Assembly: GCA_025056115.1 (NCBI GenBank)
Contig: JANWVM010000021.1
Location: forward strand, 1-39,070
Origin: Gloeomargarita sp. SKYG116
Lineage (GTDB): Bacteria; Cyanobacteriota; Cyanobacteriia; Gloeomargaritales; Gloeomargaritaceae
Length of the DNA stretch: 39,070 bases
Reading direction: 5' to 3'
The notes under the pieces were generated by a model. It saw only the letters and a list, made by a program, of their open reading frames with translations, was not told the origin of the DNA and ran no database searches. Numbering within the stretch: the first letter of the stretch is position 1; every line of letters starts with the position of its first letter. Below, piece after piece: positions 97 through 12,155 of this stretch. The position numbers and the translations under genes were made by a program.

Positions 97-609
97 TCAC
101 TGAGTCGCACTCTGGGGATGCAGCCCCCGGTTAGTCAACACTTCCTGAATCTCGGCCTCCTTGTCTTTCGTCAGGGACGTGCGCAGGACTTTGCCGCCGT
201 AGGGCGCGATTTCCTCCAGCACTTTATCGGGAGTAAATTTGCGCACCAGAATAAACAAGGCTGAGGTGCCAGGACCAAGGGTTTGGCCTAACTCGCGCAT
301 GAAATCGTCATTTACACCAATATCTGAGAGCGCTCCGGCGATAGCTCCTGTTGCGGCGCCAATGGCTGCTCCGGCCAAAGGCATGAAAAACAACGTACCA
401 ATCAATAGTCCCCAAAATCCACCACTGACGGCGCCCATGCCGGTCAGGTTAATCGCTTGGTTGAGCCGCACGTTACCTTCAGGGTCTTTGATCACTACGG
501 CGGCGTCTTCTAGCTCGATGAGATGTTCTTTTTGTAATTTGAGCAGGGCTAACCGGACTTCCTCTGCTTTGTACATATCGTCGTAGGCAATGGCAATCAG
601 CTCGCTCAT
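97..609 (-). CDS. DUF1269 family membrane protein
   Basis: 170 aa. The N-terminus (MSELIAIAYDD...AEEVRLALLKLQ) and the central glycine/alanine-rich hairpin (about residues 58-92, GAVSGGFWGLLIGTLFF followed by a second Gly/Ala stretch) are typical of DUF1269 proteins. These have a ferredoxin-like cytosolic part and a glycine-zipper membrane hairpin. The biochemical role is unknown; members are often linked to stress or envelope functions, but nothing here narrows that down. The start is the ATG at 609. The gene stands alone, divergent from the radical SAM cassette with a 240 bp A/T-rich gap between them. Confidence 0.85.
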   Translation of the reverse strand: MSELIAIAYDDMYKAEEVRLALLKLQKEHLIELEDAAVVIKDPEGNVRLNQAINLTGMGAVSGGFWGLLIGTLFFMPLAGAAIGAATGAIAGALSDIGVNDDFMRELGQTLGPGTSALFILVRKFTPDKVLEEIAPYGGKVLRTSLTKDKEAEIQEVLTNRGLHPQSATQ

Positions 610-773
610 GGGTTTGCTCCAACGCTCCTCTTACCACCCTAACACCTAAAACTAACTCGACCAGGACATGAATCCGAGCCACTTTAGTCTGTCGGAAGGG
701 GAATAGCAAAATCTAGAATGGCGCGGCGCTTCGTGACCTACAAGATGACAAGCTTAAATGACTTTGCTGTAGC

Positions 774-799
774 ACTTGGTATACCACTGCAAGTATAAT
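774..799 (+). promoter_or_regulatory. Candidate operator dyad and -10 box of the radical SAM cassette
   Basis: A perfect 10-bp palindrome TGGTATACCA (777-786) sits inside a wider ACTTG...CAAGT inverted repeat (774-778 and 790-794). It lies directly upstream of a consensus TATAAT at 794-799. No convincing -35 is seen 16-18 bp upstream, which would fit an activated or repressor-occluded promoter. Predicted transcription would begin near 806, giving a leader of about 44 nt before the ATG at 850. That leader contains two GTTTAAA copies (807-813 and 821-827). Pattern evidence only. Confidence 0.4.
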
Positions 800-849
800 T
801 TACACCGTTTAAAGTTTTTTGTTTAAATTTTACATTTTTACTGAGGGTA

Positions 850-2385
850 ATGGACACTGCTTTGGGAAGCTTGATACAATCCTACCATTCAGATTTTGCC
901 AGGGAGGAGGGGAGAATGCTAAGAGTTAGTAGTTATTCCATTTTGTCCACTCCGCTCGAAGATGGCAGTTATGCCTTGATGAATGGTATTAGTGGCGCAG
1001 TCGATTTAGTTCCAGCTGATCTCGGACAGTCATTAGAAAAAGTACTAGCGAACCGGGATCAAGCCTCAGAATTTGAATTCCTAGCTATGCTTGACCTAGA
1101 GACGATTAAGTCTTTTTATGAGCGTGGTCACTTGACAAGTCTCTCTGAGGAAGAAGAAACTCAACAAGTATGTGCTATTGCCGAAGCTACCCACGAGGCT
1201 GCTGCTAAGAAACCCTCGTTTCTAATTGTTCCAAATTTCGATTGCAACTACCGATGTACCTACTGTTTTGAACGCCCACTCCAGAACTCCCTGTATCAAA
1301 AATGTGGAACGGACGTTTCCTCATCCCGAAATATTGTTATGAGTCGTGACCAGGTGGACGCCGTATATCGGTCAATCATCAGTATTCAAAAGCAAGTTGG
1401 GTGTTCACAAGGGGGTCAAATTGTTCTCTATGGCGGTGAACCTCTCGATGCCCAGCATAAATCTATAGTCACTTATATCATTTCCCGAGGATTAGAGGAA
1501 GGATTTTGTTTTGCTGCTATCACCAATGGTCATGATTTGGATGCATATACAGGTCTCCTGGGGCCTAGTCTTATTGAGCAAATTCAAGTGACCTTTGATG
1601 GTCCAAAGACGGTTCATGACCGACGCCGTATTCACCGTGGTCATGAATCTTCATTCGATAAAATAGTAGCCAACATTCATCAGGTCTTGCATGAAACAGA
1701 GGTACAAATTCAGTTACGCATTCATGTGGCACCTGACACCCTCGAGTATTTCGCTGAACTTATCGAATTTTTTGACAGACAGGGTTGGACAAACCACCCT
1801 CGCGTTGTTATCTATGGCAGTACAATTTATGCCAAGAAACAAGATGGGAAAGTTACCAGTACGGTCCCCAATGATCTGATAGCACAGGCACTTTCTTCTG
1901 TGGCTGCTGTCTACTTTAACGTTTACACATGTCCTCCAGCTTTCCATACAACGTCAGCATTGCGACCTGTCTTCGCAGATGGGTCTCGATTTGAGTTACG
2001 AGGTGTTTATTGCAGTGCCAATGTCGGTCTATATGTCTTTGCCCCAGATGGCGGTGTGTACAGTTGTTGGGAATCAATTGGTAAGGAGTGTAGCCGAATT
2101 GGGCATTATGACAGTCCGGAGGGGTTGGTGCTTCATAAAGAGCGAGCAAATCGTTGGTTCAATCGCTCGGTAGCTGCCATTGCAGAGTGCCAGCGCTGTC
2201 CCTATGCTCTTGTGTGTGGGGGGGGATGCGCTCAATACGCTGAATACAACACCGGTTCCCTCTATAAACCATACTGTGATCACTTCCAAGGTGTGTTTCG
2301 GCAAACGCTGGCTGAAAATTTGGAATTTTTCCTTAAGACGGGGCACTCCAAGATGGGCTTCGTCGAAACTGTTGTTCGTGAGTAA
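850..2385 (+). CDS. Radical SAM/SPASM peptide-modifying enzyme
   Basis: 511 aa. The radical SAM CX3CX2C cluster motif is C132-NYR-C136-TY-C139 (followed by FERP), after an N-terminal region of about 120 residues that could bind a leader peptide. A GGEP-type motif (YGGEPLD) follows. The C-terminus carries a SPASM domain for auxiliary Fe-S clusters: C388, C406, C447-QR-C450, C456-GGG-C460 and C476. This architecture is typical of RiPP maturases and anaerobic sulfatase-maturase-like enzymes. They use S-adenosylmethionine to generate a 5'-deoxyadenosyl radical and crosslink or otherwise modify a peptide. The ATG at 850 has a GAGGG Shine-Dalgarno just upstream. The gene is followed after 21 bp by a small exported protein and then by an orphan gene in the same direction. 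It is visibly more A/T-rich than the flanking housekeeping genes. The class is confident; the substrate is inferred from position. Confidence 0.92.
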   Translation: MDTALGSLIQSYHSDFAREEGRMLRVSSYSILSTPLEDGSYALMNGISGAVDLVPADLGQSLEKVLANRDQASEFEFLAMLDLETIKSFYERGHLTSLSEEEETQQVCAIAEATHEAAAKKPSFLIVPNFDCNYRCTYCFERPLQNSLYQKCGTDVSSSRNIVMSRDQVDAVYRSIISIQKQVGCSQGGQIVLYGGEPLDAQHKSIVTYIISRGLEEGFCFAAITNGHDLDAYTGLLGPSLIEQIQVTFDGPKTVHDRRRIHRGHESSFDKIVANIHQVLHETEVQIQLRIHVAPDTLEYFAELIEFFDRQGWTNHPRVVIYGSTIYAKKQDGKVTSTVPNDLIAQALSSVAAVYFNVYTCPPAFHTTSALRPVFADGSRFELRGVYCSANVGLYVFAPDGGVYSCWESIGKECSRIGHYDSPEGLVLHKERANRWFNRSVAAIAECQRCPYALVCGGGCAQYAEYNTGSLYKPYCDHFQGVFRQTLAENLEFFLKTGHSKMGFVETVVRE

Positions 2386-2395
2386 ACTACACTAC

Positions 2396-2401
2396 AGGAG
2401 G
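2396..2401 (+). promoter_or_regulatory. Full AGGAGG ribosome binding site of the putative precursor gene
   Basis: AGGAGG lies 5 nt before the ATG at 2407. It is the best Shine-Dalgarno of the three cassette genes; the enzyme gene has only GAGGG. This fits higher translation of a substrate than of its modifying enzyme, which is an inference. Confidence 0.7.
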
Positions 2402-2406
2402 TTCAA

Positions 2407-2775
2407 ATGGCTGGAAACACTGAACGTCGTAACTTGCTCAAAGCGGCTCTTATTGCTGCTGGTGCGATGCTGCCTGCCGGGATAGCCCGTGCTCAGCAGA
2501 AGCTTCGTCAAACGCTGGAAATTAATCCACAGGCGAAAGCTGTCATGCCCGATGGCAAAATCTTGTCTCGCGAGATGATACTCCAGAGGTTGGGCTTAGA
2601 CCCCAAGACACCTCCCGATGCTTGGTTGACGATCGTAAGGTGTGGGAGTAATGCGGCTGCTTTGGGACCTGAACGGTTACAGAATTTGATACGTGAGGGC
2701 AAGTTGAAGTTGGAGGACTTGGATCCCGAAGTTCAGCAACGCTTGAAACAGATGCCAGCACCAAAGCCTCGCTAA
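2407..2775 (+). CDS. Small Tat-leader protein, putative substrate of the radical SAM enzyme
   Basis: 122 aa; family not recognised. The N-terminus has a twin arginine (R7-R8 in ERRNLLKAA), a hydrophobic stretch (about 13-25) and an A27-R28-A29 signal-peptidase site followed by QQ, which together make a Tat-type signal. The mature part has a charged helix (about 50-64: DGKILSREMILQRLG), then DPKTPPDAWLTIVRCGSN, which holds the only cysteine (C79) and a tryptophan (W73), then a second helical region and a proline/basic tail. It lies 21 bp after the SPASM gene and 29 bp before the third gene, with a full AGGAGG site. Size, position and the single conserved-looking WLTIVRCGSN segment suggest a peptide or protein modified in the cytoplasm and then exported folded. 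Alternatively it is an exported accessory protein and the true substrate lies elsewhere. Confidence 0.75.
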   Translation: MAGNTERRNLLKAALIAAGAMLPAGIARAQQKLRQTLEINPQAKAVMPDGKILSREMILQRLGLDPKTPPDAWLTIVRCGSNAAALGPERLQNLIREGKLKLEDLDPEVQQRLKQMPAPKPR

Positions 2776-2804
2776 ATTTTCTCAGTAATCAGGGAGGCCA
2801 ACGT

Positions 2805-3728
2805 GTGAGTTCGTGGGCTAGTCGAGTTACGACCAAGGTACTTGGCTGGCTTAAAAAGCATCTTTATCGCTTTAACCCGTTTACTTCTGGAGATGGGGTG
2901 AGTGAAGCTAGACAAACAGCGCTAGCTGAGCTTGCCCTGCTCTGTTTTGAGTTAAGCCAAAATCCTAGGGCTGAAACTAAAGTATTAGCATTGGCTATTC
3001 GAGGCCGGCAAGTTCTGGAAGCAGCATACCGGCAACCCGAGCTCCATAAGTTTATTCACAGGGGACCTGAGCAAGCCTTCAACGGACACTTGCTAATGTG
3101 GTTAGCCTTGCCACGACCCGTAGCAGAATCTATGGTGCCGAAAGAAGAATTCCAAGCAGTCTTCGACCACCGGGCTATTGCTCACGCTGGGTGGTCTCCG
3201 ATGCGACTGCTGGAATTGCGTTACTTTTTGGATTACTCCGGTTTGCACCACAACCTGCCGACTCCACGGCTACTTCTCGAAGAGGCGCTTGACTTGTCCA
3301 GCCTCGACCCTTACGAAATGAGTGTTACGGCAATTTACGACCTCACGCATGTCATCTTCTACGCCACTCACTTCGGTAGATGGCCTGGTGCCATACTCAC
3401 CGGTACTGAACGTGAGCATCTTGCAGCGCTGATTCTAGTCCTACAAGACCGTTTGATTAATCAAAAACACTGGGATTTAGTGGCGGAAATCATCCTTTCT
3501 CGTCGTTGCTTATGTCTTCCCGATGAGCAGCTAGCTACAGAACCAGCCTGGTATGCATTGGCTCAAGCACAAGAGGAAGAGGGTGCATACAACGCTCAAC
3601 TCTTACAACAGTTGCTGGTTGCCCAGGGCATGGAACTGGAATTGGCTGCTGACTATGTGTTCCTACGGTGCTATCACCCCTGTCTGGTAACAGCCATGGC
3701 AGGTCTGTTCCCAGAACCGTTGATCTAA
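2805..3728 (+). CDS. Unrecognised helical protein of the radical SAM cassette
   Basis: 307 aa, starting at GTG with GGGAGG at 2792-2797, 7 nt upstream. There is no signal peptide or membrane segment. The protein looks all-helical: helices around 35-75, a HKFIHRGPEQAFNGHLLMWLALP segment, and a histidine-rich block ending DLTHVIFYATHFG (about residues 184-196). That block recalls the THxxFYxTDFG signature I associate with DUF6895 proteins, a resemblance from memory only. The C-terminal half (EEEGAYNAQLLQQLLVAQG) resembles helical-repeat packing. It follows the putative precursor after 29 bp, so it probably belongs to the same transcript. It could be a leader-binding, scaffolding or second tailoring protein. 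No catalytic motif is obvious. Confidence 0.7.
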   Translation: MSSWASRVTTKVLGWLKKHLYRFNPFTSGDGVSEARQTALAELALLCFELSQNPRAETKVLALAIRGRQVLEAAYRQPELHKFIHRGPEQAFNGHLLMWLALPRPVAESMVPKEEFQAVFDHRAIAHAGWSPMRLLELRYFLDYSGLHHNLPTPRLLLEEALDLSSLDPYEMSVTAIYDLTHVIFYATHFGRWPGAILTGTEREHLAALILVLQDRLINQKHWDLVAEIILSRRCLCLPDEQLATEPAWYALAQAQEEEGAYNAQLLQQLLVAQGMELELAADYVFLRCYHPCLVTAMAGLFPEPLI

Positions 3729-3765
3729 GCCCCACCGGAAAATCTATAGAAAAGCACTTAGCTGC

Positions 3766-4121
3766 TTGGGGGGAGCAGGCCGTAAGCCGGGTTCTGTTCG
3801 AGGGCGATTATCTATCTGGGATGACGGTTACCCGCCACCTCTAGCGGTTCTCATCAACGGGACGGGAAAAAGACCAACCCTTGTCCCTCCACCTTGCTCT
3901 CAACCGGGGTTTACCGAGCCAGTACCTCACGGTACTGCTGGTGCGCTCTTACCGCACCTTTGCACCCTTGCCTGTGAGGTTTCCCTCCATCGGCGGTGTG
4001 TTTCTGTGGCACTTTCCTCACGCTCGCGCGTACTGGGCGTTACCCAGCGGTTTGGTCTTTCGAGAGCCCGGACTTTCCTCAGATGCCGAAGCATCCGCAA
4101 TCGCCACACCTACTCCCCTTC
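3766..4121 (-). ncRNA. rnpB: RNase P RNA
   Basis: Reading the minus strand, the 5' core GAGGAAAGTCCGGGCTC (complement of 4064-4080) and the 3' core ACAGAACCCGGCTTACGGC (complement of 3779-3797) are the universally conserved type-A RNase P signatures. The ends form a 10-bp P1 helix: GGGGAGTAGG (complement of 4109-4118) pairs fully with CCTGCTCCCC (complement of 3770-3779), with one G-U. This ribozyme removes 5' leaders from pre-tRNAs. The exact termini are uncertain by a few bases. The gene is convergent with the radical SAM cassette and divergent from rpsA. Confidence 0.95.
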
Positions 4122-5975: not shown

Positions 5976-6932
5976 TCAGGCCCGCCCAAGCGCCAGTCCC
6001 ACCACTAGCATACCCAGGACAAAAAAGGGTTGGGCGCTCGCTTGATACTTCACATCATTTTTAAGGGGATCGCGTAAGAAGTACATATCTTGAAAAGTAA
6101 TCTGGGGAATGACTAACAGGAGCAGAAGGGTGGCATAAAGCTGTTGACCAATCCCAATCAAATAGGCCGCCACTCCTATTTGAAATAGGTCAATCATAGC
6201 CACACTGATCCAGGCGGCTGTTTGCACGCCAAATTGCACGGGTAATGACGCCAAACCCAAGGCCCGGTCGCCTTCCATGCTTTTGAAATCGTTGACCACC
6301 GCAATTCCCAGTCCCGCTAGGCTGTAGAACAAGGTGAGCGCCACAATGGTTAGATTTAACGTGCCAAACAAGGCATGACCAGCGCACCAGGGCAAGGCGA
6401 TATAACTAGCTCCGAGCGCGTAGTTGCCGAGCCACCCGTTTTGCTTCAATTTCAGGGGCGGCGCCGAATAAATGTAGGCCAAAACTGCACCAATCAGGGC
6501 AATAGTCGTGATCACTGGCCACGGATGCCCCGCCCACTGGTCGAGGAGCCACGCCAACCCCAAACCTGCTAGCAACAACGTCACGATTTGGGCAATTACT
6601 TCGCGCAAAGGAATGGCCCCTGAGGGAATGGGTCGGTAGGGTTCATTAATTGCATCAATTTCTCGATCAAAAAAGTCATTTAATGTTTGCGTGTAACCGG
6701 TCATCAGCGGCCCGGACAACAGCATACAGGTCAAAACTTTTAGGATATCTTCTACTTGCCAATGAAACCCTCCTGATGAGGCCGCGCCACACAACACGCC
6801 CCACATCAGGGGAATCCAGGTAATGGGTTTCATTAATTGCAACCGCAGCCGCCACTTGGGGACATTTTGAACCTGCGCCCCTTTCATTCCCAGCATTTGA
6901 CGGACTTGGGCTTGGCTTGGCGTCTCACTCAT
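5976..6932 (-). CDS. chlG: Chlorophyll synthase
   Basis: 318 aa UbiA-family prenyltransferase. It esterifies chlorophyllide a with phytyl or geranylgeranyl diphosphate in the thylakoid membrane, the last step of chlorophyll a synthesis. The first aspartate-rich motif NDFFDREIDAINEPYRPIPSG and the second (VNDFKSMEGDRALGL) are intact, as are the cyanobacterial N-terminal RQMLGMKGA and LMKPITWIPLMWGVLCGAASSG segments. Eight to nine membrane spans are visible. The start is the ATG at 6932 (MSETPSQAQ); an in-frame TTG at 6953 is less likely. Transcribed toward the ABC permease. Confidence 0.97.
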   Translation of the reverse strand: MSETPSQAQVRQMLGMKGAQVQNVPKWRLRLQLMKPITWIPLMWGVLCGAASSGGFHWQVEDILKVLTCMLLSGPLMTGYTQTLNDFFDREIDAINEPYRPIPSGAIPLREVIAQIVTLLLAGLGLAWLLDQWAGHPWPVITTIALIGAVLAYIYSAPPLKLKQNGWLGNYALGASYIALPWCAGHALFGTLNLTIVALTLFYSLAGLGIAVVNDFKSMEGDRALGLASLPVQFGVQTAAWISVAMIDLFQIGVAAYLIGIGQQLYATLLLLLVIPQITFQDMYFLRDPLKNDVKYQASAQPFFVLGMLVVGLALGRA

Positions 6933-6986
6933 AACCGGTTTCTGCACCGACAACCCAACGATTATAACTTAGTCGCCTCAGACGCC

Positions 6987-7511
6987 TTAGTGGGACAAGC
7001 GTTCTTGCAGCCAAGCCCGCAGCGAGTGCAATTCTTCCTTGAGTTGCGCCACTTCGGTTTCCAGCGCGCGCACCCGCGCTTCCACATCGGCGCTGACCGG
7101 TTTGGGCACAGCACTGATCTGCTGGCGTTTGGCGCGTTCAGCAGCAAAACGAGTCGCCAAGCGGATGGCTTCGAACAATTCGTTTTTCTCAAATGGTTTG
7201 GCGACAAACGCAAAGTAATCAAAGGGTTCCGGGACTTTTTCCACGACTTCTTCTTTGCGTCCCGACATGATCACCAGGGCAATTGTTTGTAAATTTACAT
7301 CTTGTTGAATCTTTTGAAAAACTTCCCAGCCGCCCATCTTGGGAAGGATGAAATCCAACAGGATGAGATTGGGGTGATGTTCCCGGATCATATTCATGCC
7401 TTCGATGCCGTCGCGGGCTTCCAGCAGCTCTAACCCTTCCTGGGGCATCATCTCTCGCACCCGCATGCGAATGACCCGGCTATCATCAATGACCAAAACT
7501 TTCCTTGTCAT
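6987..7511 (-). CDS. CheY-like response regulator with coiled-coil tail
   Basis: 174 aa. The receiver domain fills residues 1-120: acidic pair D8-D9 (VLVIDDSR), phospho-acceptor aspartate in LILLDFILPKMGGW, MSGRKE for the switch Ser/Thr, and the lysine of FVAKPFEKNELFEA. There is no DNA-binding output domain. Instead a C-terminal helix (about 136-170, VEARVRALETEVAQLKEELHSLRAWLQERL) has heptad spacing and probably forms a coiled coil for dimerisation or partner binding. An open frame extends back to 7625 inside bioD, but ATG 7511 begins the canonical MTRKVLVIDD. It sits 58 bp after bioD on the same strand. The cognate kinase is not adjacent. Confidence 0.9.
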   Translation of the reverse strand: MTRKVLVIDDSRVIRMRVREMMPQEGLELLEARDGIEGMNMIREHHPNLILLDFILPKMGGWEVFQKIQQDVNLQTIALVIMSGRKEEVVEKVPEPFDYFAFVAKPFEKNELFEAIRLATRFAAERAKRQQISAVPKPVSADVEARVRALETEVAQLKEELHSLRAWLQERLSH

Positions 7512-7569
7512 AACGCCCCGTGGCTTGGCACCCACTTCTGATTTAAGCACATTTCGGTAGGGCTGCAAC

Positions 7570-8232
7570 TCATGGGATGACCCCCAAGGCCAAACCCGCT
7601 TGCTTGAGACACTCCCGGTTGTCAATATCAGCCACGTAGGGGAAATACCCCCACACCGGCGTCCCCGTCAAGCGCTGGATTAAACCCACAGGCGCCCAGT
7701 CCTGCCGTTGTTGTGGGGTCAGTGGTTCGCGTTCATTCAGGACCAACCCGACCAATGGCACGCCCGTCTGCCGCGCTAGAGCCACCTGGGCCACAGCCTG
7801 CCCGATTGCCCCTAACCGCACCGGCACCACCACCAGCGTTGGCAATCGCCATTGCGCCGCTACATCCGCGACGGTCCACTCCCAGGTCACCGGCGACCCC
7901 AATCCCCCCGCCCCTTCCACCAGTACGTGCGGGTAACGCTGTCGCAATTGAGTCAACTGTTGCCAGGCCCAGGTTAGATCAACGGTTTTCCCTTCGAGTT
8001 GCGCGGCCAAAGGCGGTGCTAACGGGGCAGCAAAGTACAGGGGATTGAGTTCAGCGGGGGTCTGGTCGGGATGCAACACCTGCTGGTAATATTCCCGGTC
8101 GCCGACGCCCGCCTGCACCAGCTTCATCACCCCCACGTTGCCTAGGGCTAGCGCCAGCGCCGCCGTGACGATTGTTTTGCCGCAACCGGTATCACTGGCG
8201 CTCACCAGCAGGCACTGATACGGGAAAGCCAT
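7570..8232 (-). CDS. bioD: Dethiobiotin synthetase
   Basis: 220 aa. It closes the ureido ring of biotin from 7,8-diaminopelargonate using CO2 and ATP. The P-loop is SASDTGCGKT, where most family members have a GTDTEVGKT-like form. VEGAGGLGSPV carries the family acidic VEGAGG motif, and VVVPVRLGAIGQ and LVLNE match the nucleotide-binding strands. The length is normal. No other bio gene is in the window. Read in the same direction as the following response regulator and divergent from the LptA-like gene (38 bp apart). Confidence 0.9.
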   Translation of the reverse strand: MAFPYQCLLVSASDTGCGKTIVTAALALALGNVGVMKLVQAGVGDREYYQQVLHPDQTPAELNPLYFAAPLAPPLAAQLEGKTVDLTWAWQQLTQLRQRYPHVLVEGAGGLGSPVTWEWTVADVAAQWRLPTLVVVPVRLGAIGQAVAQVALARQTGVPLVGLVLNEREPLTPQQRQDWAPVGLIQRLTGTPVWGYFPYVADIDNRECLKQAGLALGVIP

Positions 8233-8270
8233 CGTCCTCTATCATAGGCAGTAGCGTTGCGATCACCATT

Positions 8271-8699
8271 ATGAAGGGATGGGTCTGCGGTGTGCTGGGC
8301 GGTCTGGGACTGGTGACCGTCACGATATTACCCCTGGGAGCACAGCCTCAACGAGGGGGGCCACTCACCATCACATCCGATATCCAGGAAGCCAACGCCC
8401 GCACTGGTATTTTGGTCGCCCGCGGCAATGTCCGCCTGGTTTATCCCAGTCGCCAAGTGGATGCGGTTGCTGAAATGGCCGAGTACGACACCCGGCGGCG
8501 GATCATCACCCTGCGGGGCAATGTGTTTGTCCAGCAGGAAAACAACACGCTACGGGCGGAAGTGGTGACCTACAACATTAACACCGGCAAAATCGAAGCT
8601 CTCCCGGCGCCCCAAAAACAGGTGCAATCGGTGTATGTGATTAAGGAAGACCCGGAAAAGCCCGCCCCGCAGATAAGTCCGACTCCCACGCCGCCGTAA
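8271..8699 (+). CDS. LptA/OstA-like periplasmic LPS transport protein
   Basis: 142 aa. An N-terminal signal (KGWVCGVLGGLGLVTVTILPLGAQ) precedes an OstA-type beta-jellyroll: PLTITSDIQEANARTG, ARGNVRLVYPSRQVDAVAEMAEYD, TLRGNVFVQQENNTLRAEVVTYN. The repeated V/I-x-A-x-x-A and GNV pattern is typical of LptA. The last 20 residues are proline-rich and probably disordered. The role is to bridge lipopolysaccharide from the inner-membrane ABC exporter to the outer membrane. A second Lpt-type gene (LptC-like) lies at 20735. The start ATG 8271 was chosen because it begins the signal peptide; the frame is open further upstream inside bioD. Confidence 0.85.
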   Translation: MKGWVCGVLGGLGLVTVTILPLGAQPQRGGPLTITSDIQEANARTGILVARGNVRLVYPSRQVDAVAEMAEYDTRRRIITLRGNVFVQQENNTLRAEVVTYNINTGKIEALPAPQKQVQSVYVIKEDPEKPAPQISPTPTPP

Positions 8700-8772
8700 C
8701 CCCTTGCCGGCAGGGACAATTCATTCCTAAAGTGGAACAGGTGGCTTTATTCGGCGAGCGAGGTGGCAGTCT

Positions 8773-9258
8773 ATGGCTTTAGTCGCACAAGTGATTGCAA
8801 ATGCAGATGAAGAACTGCGTTACCCGACCAGCGGGGAATTGCAGGCGATTCGGGATTTCTGCGCAACGGGTGAACAACGGCTCCGCATTGCCAGTATCCT
8901 AGCCGAGAACGAGAAAAAAATTATAGACAAAGCCGTACAACAACTCTGGCAACTACACCCGGATTACATTCTCCCCGGCGGCAACGCTTACGGTCAGCGG
9001 CAACGGGCCTTGTGCCTGCGGGACTACGGCTGGTATCTGCGTTTGATCACCTACGGGATCGTGGCTGGGGATAAAGAACCCATCGAAAGCATCGGCCTGA
9101 TTGGGGTGCGGGAAATGTACAACTCTCTAGGCGTGCCGGTGGTAGGGATGGCCGACGCGATTCGTTGCCTAAAAACGGCGGCCCTGGCGCTCCTGGATGA
9201 GGAAGATGCGGCGATTGCGGCCGATTACTTCGACTACGTGATTCAGGCGATGTCCTGA
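8773..9258 (+). CDS. apcD: Allophycocyanin-B alpha subunit
   Basis: 161 aa phycobiliprotein of the phycobilisome core. It acts as a terminal emitter and has been linked to energy transfer to photosystem I. The chromophore cysteine is in [14 protein letters not shown] (residue about 81). ApcD-type residues distinguish it from ApcA: the N-terminus [47 protein letters not shown] and [15 protein letters not shown]. It ends in the family-typical [20 protein letters not shown] site precedes the ATG. A lysozyme-like gene follows 15 bp later on the same strand. Confidence 0.95.
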
Positions 9259-9273
9259 CGGTTATTCACGGGT

Positions 9274-9924
9274 GTGAGGGGTATCTTCCCACCAAAACAT
9301 CACCGGTTTTGGGCGGGTTTCTTGCTGGGGATGGGTGTCGGTAGCTGGCCGTTGTGGCAACCGTCCCTGTGGCTGCATTGGCTGGCTCCCCCGTTGGCGA
9401 TGCGAGGCGGCGACCCCTATGTCCGGGCGTTAATGCGCACCATTACGGTCAGCGAAGCTCCCGGCCCGCGCACCTACAACCGCCTGTATGGGGGAGGATA
9501 CACCCCTGACCTCCGGCAGCATCCTGACCGGTGTGTGGTGATTCGTCCCGGTTGGTGTTCAACCGCGGCAGGTCGCTACCAACTCCTGTCCACCACCTGG
9601 TACGAAAAAGTGCAGCGTTATCATCCCCACCCACAAGCCGCCGAGTTTGCCCCAGAATTCCAGGATCAGGTGGTGTACCGCTGGCTGAGCGACTCTCACG
9701 CTTGGGGTTTCGATATTACAGCCACCCTCCGCCAAGGGCAATTGACAACTGTCCTGCGAGAACTCTCCGGCACCTGGACCAGCCTGGGGTATGGCCCGGA
9801 ATCCAACCGCTGGACGCCCCTGTTGCCCTGGATTTATCAGCACGTGTTGCGGGAGGAACTGGCGCAAACCACTCAGTCCTCGTCTAACGGCAACCCCCGG
9901 CGCACCCGTCCCTTGCCAAAGTAA
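9274..9924 (+). CDS. Phage-endolysin-like lysozyme (GH104/lambda R type), membrane-anchored
   Basis: 216 aa from a GTG start 15 bp after apcD. After an N-terminal hydrophobic segment (FWAGFLLGMGVGSWPLW, about 11-27), the catalytic domain has TITVSEAPGPRTYNRLYGGG with the probable catalytic glutamate in SEA. CSTAAGRYQLLSTTW is the substrate-cleft signature of lambda gpR-type transglycosylases, and ELSGTWTSLGYG follows near the end. It should cleave peptidoglycan glycan strands in the periplasm, the anchor tethering it to the inner membrane. No other phage gene is nearby, so this appears to be a domesticated cell-wall enzyme. Its last 52 bp overlap the fdC2 gene on the other strand. The tail is rich in Ser, Arg and Pro. 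Confidence 0.8.
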   Translation: MRGIFPPKHHRFWAGFLLGMGVGSWPLWQPSLWLHWLAPPLAMRGGDPYVRALMRTITVSEAPGPRTYNRLYGGGYTPDLRQHPDRCVVIRPGWCSTAAGRYQLLSTTWYEKVQRYHPHPQAAEFAPEFQDQVVYRWLSDSHAWGFDITATLRQGQLTTVLRELSGTWTSLGYGPESNRWTPLLPWIYQHVLREELAQTTQSSSNGNPRRTRPLPK

Positions 9925-10241
9925 CGACCAAATTGCAGTTCGTACAATTCATCCTCATCCTGGGTGGCCAGTTCCAAATCCGACCGGGCGTAGCTCACAC
10001 AAGCCAAGGCGTATCCCGCCTGCCGCAACGACGCCGATAGCCCCAACGCCTCCGGCTGGTCCACCGCTCCCTGCAATACCCGCACGCCACAGGTAGTGCA
10101 ACAGCCATTGCGACAGGCAAACGGCAGGCGAATCCCCTGGGCCTCCAGCGCCATGAGCAAGTATTGGTCGTCGGGCACCTGGGCGTGGTACACCTGTCCC
10201 TGCTGCCGGTCGTGAATCGTGACGTGGTAATAACGAGTCAT
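9873..10241 (-). CDS. FdC2-type [2Fe-2S] ferredoxin
   Basis: 122 aa. The plant-type cluster motif is C-RNGC-C-TT-C, with the fourth ligand in ALACVSYARSDLE. The C-terminal extension DEDELYELQFGRYFGKGKVRR-like block ending in GLPLDED is characteristic of cyanobacterial and plastid FdC2 and absent from PetF. FdC2 proteins have a raised redox potential and have been tied to chlorophyll synthesis and acclimation. An extra cysteine sits immediately before the second ligand, where PetF has serine. The stop overlaps the end of the lysozyme gene by 52 bp. The FAD oxidoreductase gene upstream ends exactly 1 bp before the start, so the two probably share a transcript. Confidence 0.92.
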   Translation of the reverse strand: MTRYYHVTIHDRQQGQVYHAQVPDDQYLLMALEAQGIRLPFACRNGCCTTCGVRVLQGAVDQPEALGLSASLRQAGYALACVSYARSDLELATQDEDELYELQFGRYFGKGRVRRGLPLDED

Positions 10242-11630
10242 TTACAACCTCGCTCCTTGGGCAATCAACCGCTGGCGCAACGCGACCCCATCCACCTGGC
10301 GCGGGGGAATCCCTTCATCCAGGGACATGGCCATGGCTACGGCGGCCGCTTCTCCCATGGCTCGGCAATTGGACTGCACCCGCACCGACCCTTGGGCTGC
10401 GAACGTCGCCGACAAGCACCGCCCTGCCACCAACAACTGTTCGACCCCCAACGGCACCAGACAGCGGTAAGGAATCTCGTGGTATTCGCCGGGCGGCAGA
10501 TGGGTCAATCCCGGTCGCTGGTCTTTGGTGGGGCGATGGATGTCAATCGGATAATTGTTGCGGGCAATGGCATCGGGAAATTTCCGCGCCTCCAGCACAT
10601 CCGTCTCGGTGAGCAGGTATTCCCCCAGCATCCGCCGGGACTCCCGCACCCCCACCAGCGCCGCCCCCATCACCACGTAGGCCTGTTCGCACCCCGGCAG
10701 ATAGCGCCGACAAAACTGCCAGTAGCGCCGGATGGCCTGCCGTCCCCGGATTTGCGCCTGTGTTAAATGCCACGGATTCGTCCCGTCCACCTCGCCACTG
10801 ATGCGCGGGCAATTAAACGCCAGTTCCCCCGGTCGCCCCGCCATTGTAAACACTTGAAAATACTCCCCGTCTTCCGGCAACAGCACCCCCTCGGCCACCG
10901 CTTGGCGAAACAAGGGTTCTAGCGGCCAGTTGCGTCCCCAGACCATCGCTGTATGGATCAAGGGCACCTGCGACCCCTCCGCCTGGTCCATGACCTCATA
11001 CCGCCCCAAACTGCGCAAAAAATCCGCAAAGCGAGCCAAATCCACATTTCCCAAATGAAACCGCACGGAAAAGGGCTGGTTCACCCCGGTTTCCGGGTCG
11101 CCGCTCTGGAACGGTACACCCGCCCGGTAGGCCACGTCCCCATCGCCAGTGGCGTCAATCGTGCGCTTGGCCCAAATCACTCCCCGCCCCGCCTTGTTGG
11201 TCACGACCACCCCCACCACTTGCCCGTCTACCACCACTGCGTCTTCAAAAAACGTGTAGTACAAAAGCTGGGCGCCGCAAGATACGAGCATCTCCTCCAG
11301 AACCCATTTCAGCGCCTCTGGGTTAAACCAGCCCCGGTTGCCATCCCGCCAGACCCCCGATTCCACCAGGTCGTTGAGTCGCTGGTTAATCTCCGCATCA
11401 ATCCCGCCGTTGAGGGGCGTTCCCTGCAATTGGTTCGGCATCATCGGCGTGACCAAGGCTCCGGTCTGGGTTCCCCCTAGATACCCTAACTGCTCCACCA
11501 CCAGCGTGCGATAGCCCGTACGTCCAGCAGCAATGCCAGCGACAGCTCCTGCCGTTCCTCCGCCCACGACGAGAATGTCCGCTGCGGCCACGACGGGCAA
11601 ATCGGCAATTGCCTGGGGGGATAGGGCCAT
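10242..11630 (-). CDS. FAD-dependent oxidoreductase (FAD_oxidored family)
   Basis: 462 aa from ATG 11630. The N-terminal dinucleotide-binding motif ILVVGGGTAGAVAGIAAGRTG is followed by TLVVEQLGYLGGTQTGALVTP. IDATGDGDVAYRAGV is a second flavin contact. The C-terminal LLVAGRCLSATFAAQGSVRVQSNCRAMGEAAAVA closes the FAD site, as in the family that includes thiazole-type and anaerobic fumarate-like oxidoreductases of unknown substrate. The frame is open to 11693, but ATG 11630 lies 2 bp past the stop of the preceding small gene and puts the Rossmann motif at a normal distance. It is followed directly by fdC2, which could serve as its electron partner (inference). No substrate is assignable. Confidence 0.85.
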   Translation of the reverse strand: MALSPQAIADLPVVAAADILVVGGGTAGAVAGIAAGRTGYRTLVVEQLGYLGGTQTGALVTPMMPNQLQGTPLNGGIDAEINQRLNDLVESGVWRDGNRGWFNPEALKWVLEEMLVSCGAQLLYYTFFEDAVVVDGQVVGVVVTNKAGRGVIWAKRTIDATGDGDVAYRAGVPFQSGDPETGVNQPFSVRFHLGNVDLARFADFLRSLGRYEVMDQAEGSQVPLIHTAMVWGRNWPLEPLFRQAVAEGVLLPEDGEYFQVFTMAGRPGELAFNCPRISGEVDGTNPWHLTQAQIRGRQAIRRYWQFCRRYLPGCEQAYVVMGAALVGVRESRRMLGEYLLTETDVLEARKFPDAIARNNYPIDIHRPTKDQRPGLTHLPPGEYHEIPYRCLVPLGVEQLLVAGRCLSATFAAQGSVRVQSNCRAMGEAAAVAMAMSLDEGIPPRQVDGVALRQRLIAQGARL

Positions 11631-11632
11631 AC

Positions 11633-11851
11633 TCAACGCAACAAAGACGGCGGCGGCGGTGGGACATCCTGCTCCTGATTGCACCCCTTCCATGCCTCCC
11701 GCATCGCCAGCAAGGCCACCTCCAGCGGCATCTCGGACAGAGTCTGGCGGAAATGGAACTTTAAACCCGCAATCAGTTCACGCACTTCAGGTGGAAAAGG
11801 GGCTTTGGGCTGCATATGCTGGGGGTAGGTGTCCACGGTGATATGGGGCAA
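11633..11851 (-). CDS. Small hypothetical protein upstream of the FAD oxidoreductase
   Basis: 72 aa, unrecognised. It has a helical middle (PPEVRELIAGLKFHFRQTLSEMPLEVALLAMREAWKG), a polyproline tail and no signal peptide. The stop is 2 bp before the preferred ATG of the oxidoreductase, which suggests translational coupling. An in-frame ATG twelve codons in (MQPKAPFPPEV) is an alternative start. The amino-acid composition is protein-like, but no database support was available. Confidence 0.55.
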   Translation of the reverse strand: MPHITVDTYPQHMQPKAPFPPEVRELIAGLKFHFRQTLSEMPLEVALLAMREAWKGCNQEQDVPPPPPSLLR

Positions 11852-12155
11852 AACATAGAGTGGATTCGTATTCGTATTTTGTCATGGATACCGCCGACTG
11901 TTCAGCAAACGGCAGAGGTTGTTATGATATAGCCAAGCTAGTGCCGTTGGTCAGAGCAAGAACCAGCAACAGAGCTTCGCTTGGCAACCCCAGGGATGAC
12001 ATCATAAATAATTGGGCGATGTCGTCACCCAAGGGATGTAATTGAGTCTTGCCTTATGCTACAACCTTCACCCTAGCAACAATCCAACTAATTTTTTACA
12101 AAACTTAAAAAGGTGATACGTTGGGTTAAAGAGGTTATCCTAAGCCAGCGGTAAA
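11852..12155. other. Gene-free 304-bp region with two stem-loops
   Basis: No convincing coding frame. A TATGAT box at 11923-11928 is followed by two foldable segments. The first has a 7-bp closing helix GCCAAGC/GCTTGGC (11932-11938 with 11979-11985) enclosing a GTTGGT/ACCAGC hairpin. The second is a 9-bp hairpin GATGACATC/GATGTCGTC (11995-12003 with 12018-12026, one G-U). Downstream the sequence becomes A/T-rich with a T run near 12091. This could be a structured small RNA or a leader of the pentapeptide gene. Confidence 0.4.

Follow-up and report, generated by a model that had tools for sequence, protein, structure and literature searches.

A likely horizontally acquired RiPP-like maturation cassette pairing a SPASM radical SAM enzyme and a DUF6895 protein with a Tat-leader small protein in Gloeomargarita

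The genome of Gloeomargarita sp. SKYG116 carries a cassette of three genes that is likely a horizontally acquired RiPP-like maturation system, a reading in which chemistry and function are predicted from the genes and their relatives. Judged from its sequence, the cassette very probably directs the synthesis of a small exported protein and its modification by a radical enzyme and, probably, an epimerase. An earlier note on this DNA had proposed a RiPP-like system, and the proposal is now supported by a matching gene pair in Desulfocicer vacuolatum, so that two species carry the pair, by conservation of a core segment in the small protein and by the assignment of the third protein to DUF6895. 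The window, the whole stretch of DNA analysed (39,070 nucleotides), is one entire contig of a 2.37-Mb draft genome that is 98% complete.

Cassette architecture and insertion site

The cassette spans positions 613..3766 (approximate bounds, no strand assigned), as delimited by comparison with a same-genus genome (G732) and by a drop in GC3. It lies between a gene at 97-609(-) and its right neighbour, the RNase P RNA gene rnpB (3767-4117, minus strand). At locus L043 of G732, ~17 bp separate rnpB from the counterpart of the left flanking gene (77% identical), compared with ~3.15 kb in the window. The three cassette genes have GC3 values of 0.40, 0.53 and 0.48, against 0.57-0.72 in the listed flanking genes, in keeping with the earlier description of an A/T-richer segment. 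The enzyme was not found in the seven other genomes of the window's family in a profile search of eight genomes. Because GC3 is low, the flanks adjoin in G732 and the enzyme is absent from these seven genomes, the best reading is that the cassette is a rare, horizontally acquired, foreign insertion. Binning contamination is ruled out, as the DNA to either side of the cassette, within one contig, matches the same-genus genome and is native; chlorophyll synthase ChlG and 30S ribosomal protein S1 are among the flanking genes, which marks the host as a cyanobacterium. No flanking direct repeats, inverted ends or terminal repeats marking a transposon were found around the cassette. The left flanking gene encodes a conserved 170-aa protein with a glycine/alanine-rich, membrane-like stretch; it is also the neighbour of rnpB in G732 and has no NCBIfam match.

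Three co-directional open reading frames, at 850-2385, 2407-2775 and 2805-3728 on the plus strand with gaps of 21 and 29 bp, were re-read as first described. The first is indeed open from 850, whereas its start is likelier at M23 (base 916) than at 850. From the sequence, M23 is probably the real start, since GGGAGGAGGGG precedes its codon, the site ahead of the 850 start being weaker, and since the Desulfocicer homologue begins exactly at that point.

The SPASM enzyme and its relatives

The first gene (916..2385, plus strand) encodes a SPASM radical SAM maturase that exceeds the cut-offs of both the SPASM model TIGR04085 (49.2 vs 27 bits) and Pfam Radical_SAM (30.1 vs 29.5). The cysteines singled out previously were recovered: C132, C136 and C139 form the CxxxCxxC motif of the radical SAM [4Fe-4S] cluster (1243..1266, plus strand), and C388, C406, C447, C450, C456, C460 and C476 are the seven auxiliary-cluster cysteines of the SPASM domain (2011..2277, plus strand), placed by the TIGR04085 match and by cysteine alignment. 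All ten are invariant in the aligned SPASM enzymes (n=8 relatives), and an eighth C-terminal cysteine, C414, is non-conserved.

A pattern scan of the genomes of ~85,000 species, which detects close relatives only, returned one close relative of the enzyme, in Desulfocicer vacuolatum, a member of a different phylum; the two enzymes are 45% identical over 467 residues. Profile searches covering 386 genomes of cyanobacteria, 345 from the Desulfocicer phylum, 291 from the Desulfocicer order and 8 from the family of the window, in overlapping samples, found no further close members. Relatives of neither the enzyme nor the small protein were found in profile scans of viral contigs, and plasmids yielded only distant SPASM enzymes (29-30% identity) and no relative of the small protein.

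Outgroup SPASM relatives from the profile searches (~30% identity) adjoin Cys-rich small proteins or, in one cyanobacterium, a Nif11 precursor. Since these outgroups stand beside small-protein genes, this part of the SPASM family looks like peptide maturases. Peptide maturases are also the closest named families of the enzyme, although it stays below the cut-offs of the named NCBIfam RiPP maturases CefB (111.5/600), TIGR04463 (100.9/525), Clo7bot (91/600), geopeptide (84.4/400) and PapB (74.9/340); the Desulfocicer enzyme likewise falls under every NCBIfam maturase cut-off. The best fold match of the enzyme model, of low confidence, is CteB over nearly its full length (the structure models have mean pLDDT values of 50 and 45, that of the DUF6895 model being 50). 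Matches of parts of the cassette proteins to phytochrome and Protein A are not credible.

The earlier note had reported no PqqD-like gene. No separate one is present, yet the N-terminal extension of the enzyme (residues 23-92; 916..1125, plus strand) is a candidate RRE-like region, with three strands and then three helices predicted in a low-confidence, low-pLDDT model. The N-terminal 100 residues have no Pfam match.

Other SPASM loci seen in these searches differ in content. In three genomes of the Desulfocicer phylum (loci L018, 5679-12150, L019 and L020), the enzymes have several small Cys-rich proteins as neighbours, together with two proteins of very large size (640 and 887-926 aa). The L018 pair of large proteins is without a Pfam match, although its sequence is suggestive of polyprenyl-synthase and alpha/alpha-toroid parts. 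At cyanobacterial L039 (4690-14025), the SPASM enzyme (7017-8540) adjoins a Nif11-leader precursor ending in FYYGNSRGSSCSQW, and tryptophan-halogenase-like, 2OG-oxygenase-like, TfuA-like and YcaO-like genes, named from sequence only, lie nearby.

The small protein and the DUF6895 protein

The second gene (2407..2775, plus strand) encodes a 122-aa protein that is the probable substrate, or precursor. Its AGGAGG site and twin-arginine leader are as originally reported: the Tat signal model TIGR01409 scores 18.5 bits against a cut-off of 16.7, and the two Desulfocicer small proteins score 20.1 and 18.3. The leader, ERRNLLKAALIAAGAMLPAGIARA (2407..2493, plus strand), contains an AxA motif, with cleavage expected after ARA, and the window's genome encodes TatC (E 5e-68).

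Three small proteins, otherwise broadly divergent, share TPPDAWL and CGSNA. They have 35 invariant positions, 14 of them inside a 21-residue block, P-x-TPPDAWL...CGSNAxxL, which in the window is PKTPPDAWLTIVRCGSNAAAL (residues 66-86; 2602..2664, plus strand) and is the predicted modification site. The enrichment of invariant positions in this block has a hypergeometric p of 4e-4 within the mature part, an optimistic value because the block was picked with the alignment already in view; the alignment of the mature part scores 164, against at most 46 in 1000 shuffles. The core suggested earlier, WLTIVRCGSN, holds at its ends, as WL and CGSN belong to the most conserved stretch, whereas the TIVR between them varies and the loop from WL to CGSN is not of constant length. 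One cysteine (C79) is present in the window protein, against two in Desulfocicer. Features that characterize RiPPs are thus found here, namely a precursor gene adjoining the enzyme at both loci and a conserved segment within diverging precursors. Membership of a known non-substrate family would have spoken against a substrate role, and the small protein matches none in family searches; a match to PA4570 (E 0.17) was rejected because the 100-bit cut-off was not approached.

In Desulfocicer, the enzyme gene is followed after 1 bp by a gene for a 133-aa small protein, then by a second Tat-type paralogue and by a B12 radical SAM RiPP C-methyltransferase (TIGR03975, 502 vs a cut-off of 282 bits). 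This last gene lies at 8443-10314 of the locus (L004), and a piece of an IS4-type transposase lies at 11560-12099, near the contig end. The sole close homologue of the enzyme thus adjoins the small protein, present there in two copies, which agrees with the proposed pairing. Across the enzyme profile samples and the small-protein searches, the latter covering 386 and 175 genomes in overlapping samples, neither the enzyme nor the small protein was found without the other, and the two genomes were the only ones with the pair. The 175 genomes of the Desulfocicer order held no small protein outside Desulfocicer in a profile search. A small-protein match in another genome, G300 (E 0.0097), was rejected, as it falls in an efflux membrane-fusion-type protein.

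The third gene (2805..3728, plus strand) encodes a 307-aa protein that had been called unrecognised. This is incorrect: it belongs to PF21836/DUF6895 (E 9.9e-43, 147 vs 23.8 bits), and an alignment of seven DUF6895 proteins indicates that it keeps the invariant positions, including Y178, T181, H182, D224, E228, Y290 and H291. A DUF6895 lasso-peptide epimerase is named in the title of a recent article (ACS Catal. 2026, 16:1757, reference 371 of PMC13352647). By analogy, the DUF6895 protein probably epimerises a peptide residue, and its presence as the third gene strengthens the RiPP reading.

Short peptide genes lie directly upstream or nearby in five of the six other DUF6895 loci: two near-identical 64-aa genes in a cyanobacterium, genes of 62-69 aa in two Streptomyces, 65 aa in Kitasatospora and 86 aa in Pseudalkalibacillus. 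The neighbour at the sixth is 130-134 aa. A SPASM enzyme was seen in none of these six loci. Neither a lasso cyclase nor a leader protease was found in the cassette (Pfam, NCBIfam) or in the scanned flanking genes. The epimerase step is not a shared part of the system, because no DUF6895 gene adjoins the Desulfocicer enzyme; the window's own genome, in turn, has no TIGR03975 C-methyltransferase. A separate weak match, below cut-off, occurs in G270.

The DUF6895 loci show arrangements of their own. At cyanobacterial L010, two tandem near-identical 64-aa frames (6845-7289) with strong ribosome sites precede a 656-aa protein (7471-9441) that begins with a DUF6895 domain, and ABC-2 transporter and efflux genes come next; by its looks this is a separate DUF6895 RiPP cluster. 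The Streptomyces plasmid loci L023 (3548-6408) and L024 (3635-6405) each carry a short peptide gene, a gene for a ~231-aa protein and two tandem DUF6895 genes, and their peptides conserve RDSRECAALAL and a PPxPRPKKG end. No annotated lasso cyclase gene is near L024, and L023 carries no annotation.

Proposed maturation, alternatives and known systems

In the proposed mechanism, the SPASM enzyme would bind the small protein, perhaps by means of the RRE-like part at the enzyme's N-terminus, and a 5'-deoxyadenosyl radical generated from SAM would abstract a hydrogen in the TPPDAWL...CGSNA segment. The auxiliary clusters would help the enzyme to install a crosslink, for which the conserved Cys/Trp core is the likeliest site. 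A thioether from C79, the sole cysteine of the window protein, is the likeliest product, with a chance slightly short of even; it is preferred on the grounds that the named maturases with the best matches, and the fold match CteB from a low-confidence model, are thioether-forming or have Cys-rich peptides as substrates. Both CteB and PapB are thioether-forming enzymes. A Trp cyclophane ranks second and is possible on the sequence, because DAWL is invariant. Before or after crosslinking, the DUF6895 protein would probably convert one residue into its D form by epimerisation. Once modified, the small protein would fold and leave by Tat, and signal peptidase would cut after ARA, releasing a modified protein of ~93 residues into the periplasm or thylakoid lumen. 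As stated in the earlier note, no dedicated transporter or protease lies near the cassette. This speaks against the proposal, as do the restriction of the pair to two species, the lack of DUF6895 beside the Desulfocicer enzyme, the low pLDDT of both structure models, and the differences between the two species in cysteine number and in WL-to-CGSN spacing. More tentatively, the cassette may belong to a Tat-exported RiPP-like family whose single TPPDAWL...CGSNA core receives, before export, both a crosslink from the radical SAM enzyme and a D-amino acid from DUF6895, with C-methylation replacing epimerisation in Desulfocicer.

The small protein might instead be a working subunit that acquires a protein-derived cofactor, or crosslinks that stabilise it, through the SPASM enzyme and then serves in the periplasm or lumen as part of an enzyme or redox carrier. 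Such a role would suit a ~93-residue product whose long tail is conserved and which Tat exports in folded form, the lack of an adjoining protease or ABC exporter, and the additional resemblance of the enzyme to quinohemoprotein maturase and anaerobic sulfatase maturase models. We nevertheless regard it as unlikely, as the cassette lacks a dehydrogenase or other large partner gene, both DUF6895 and the Desulfocicer RiPP C-methyltransferase point to peptide tailoring, and sporadic distribution together with insertion is typical of specialised products.

It is more improbable still that the small protein is an exported pathway partner and the enzyme acts on a peptide or protein encoded elsewhere. 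The position of the presumed core in mid-protein and the unusually long C-terminal tail could be read in this way, but the two genes are adjacent in both species, the small-protein gene is duplicated directly behind the enzyme in Desulfocicer, and the Cys/Trp segment is more conserved than the remainder. Three intact frames with good ribosome sites, the ten retained cluster cysteines and the retained DUF6895 invariant residues make it very hard to regard the cassette as a passing, non-functional foreign segment that is intact by chance, even though this genome is the only one of eight in its family to carry it and its GC3 is atypical. A RiPP-like maturation system is therefore the reading we prefer.

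SPASM RiPPs are already known, whereas we did not find a SPASM and DUF6895 hybrid system with a twin-arginine leader described. Export signals are described as highly unusual leaders for bacterial RiPPs, and bufferins are the only ones for which use of the general Sec route by the natural host has been demonstrated (PMC12452194). The open-access literature yielded no described Tat-leader radical SAM RiPP, and the literature searched held no description of a SPASM and DUF6895 combination. A Tat leader would allow export of a crosslinked, folded small protein. With three genes, the compact cassette pairs two tailoring chemistries not seen together elsewhere in this analysis and, if the reading is true, extends the reach of DUF6895 past lasso peptides.

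Among known systems, the SPASM maturases of ranthipeptides and sactipeptides (CteB, PapB, CefB NF038107, TIGR04463) provide the best sequence and fold matches and share the CxxxCxxC motif, the seven SPASM cysteines, an N-terminal extension and an adjacent small substrate gene. However, the scores of 75-129 bits stand against family cut-offs of 340-600, and their substrates have a Cys-rich core, in contrast to the single cysteine and Tat-signal leader of the window substrate. The quinohemoprotein amine dehydrogenase gamma subunit and QhpD likewise involve a SPASM enzyme that crosslinks a small exported protein, but the cassette has no dehydrogenase genes and its enzyme scores 52 against a cut-off of 453. 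The Cys-Xaa-Xaa-Xaa repeat targets of TIGR04117 have a leader weakly matched by the N-terminus of one Desulfocicer small protein (E 0.003), so a similar leader may exist in Desulfocicer; the score of 17.6 is far below the cut-off of 50, and the small proteins lack a CxxxC repeat core. Compared at the level of its title, the DUF6895 lasso-peptide epimerase belongs to the same Pfam family, whose invariant residues the window protein keeps, whereas the cassette has no recognised lasso cyclase or protease and pairs the protein with a SPASM enzyme. Bufferins, which are MNIO-modified RiPPs (PMC12452194), use Sec and an MNIO enzyme in place of Tat and radical SAM, and their copper-binding Cys motifs are not seen in the cassette; what they share with the proposed system is a long precursor, an export signal as leader and modification before export.
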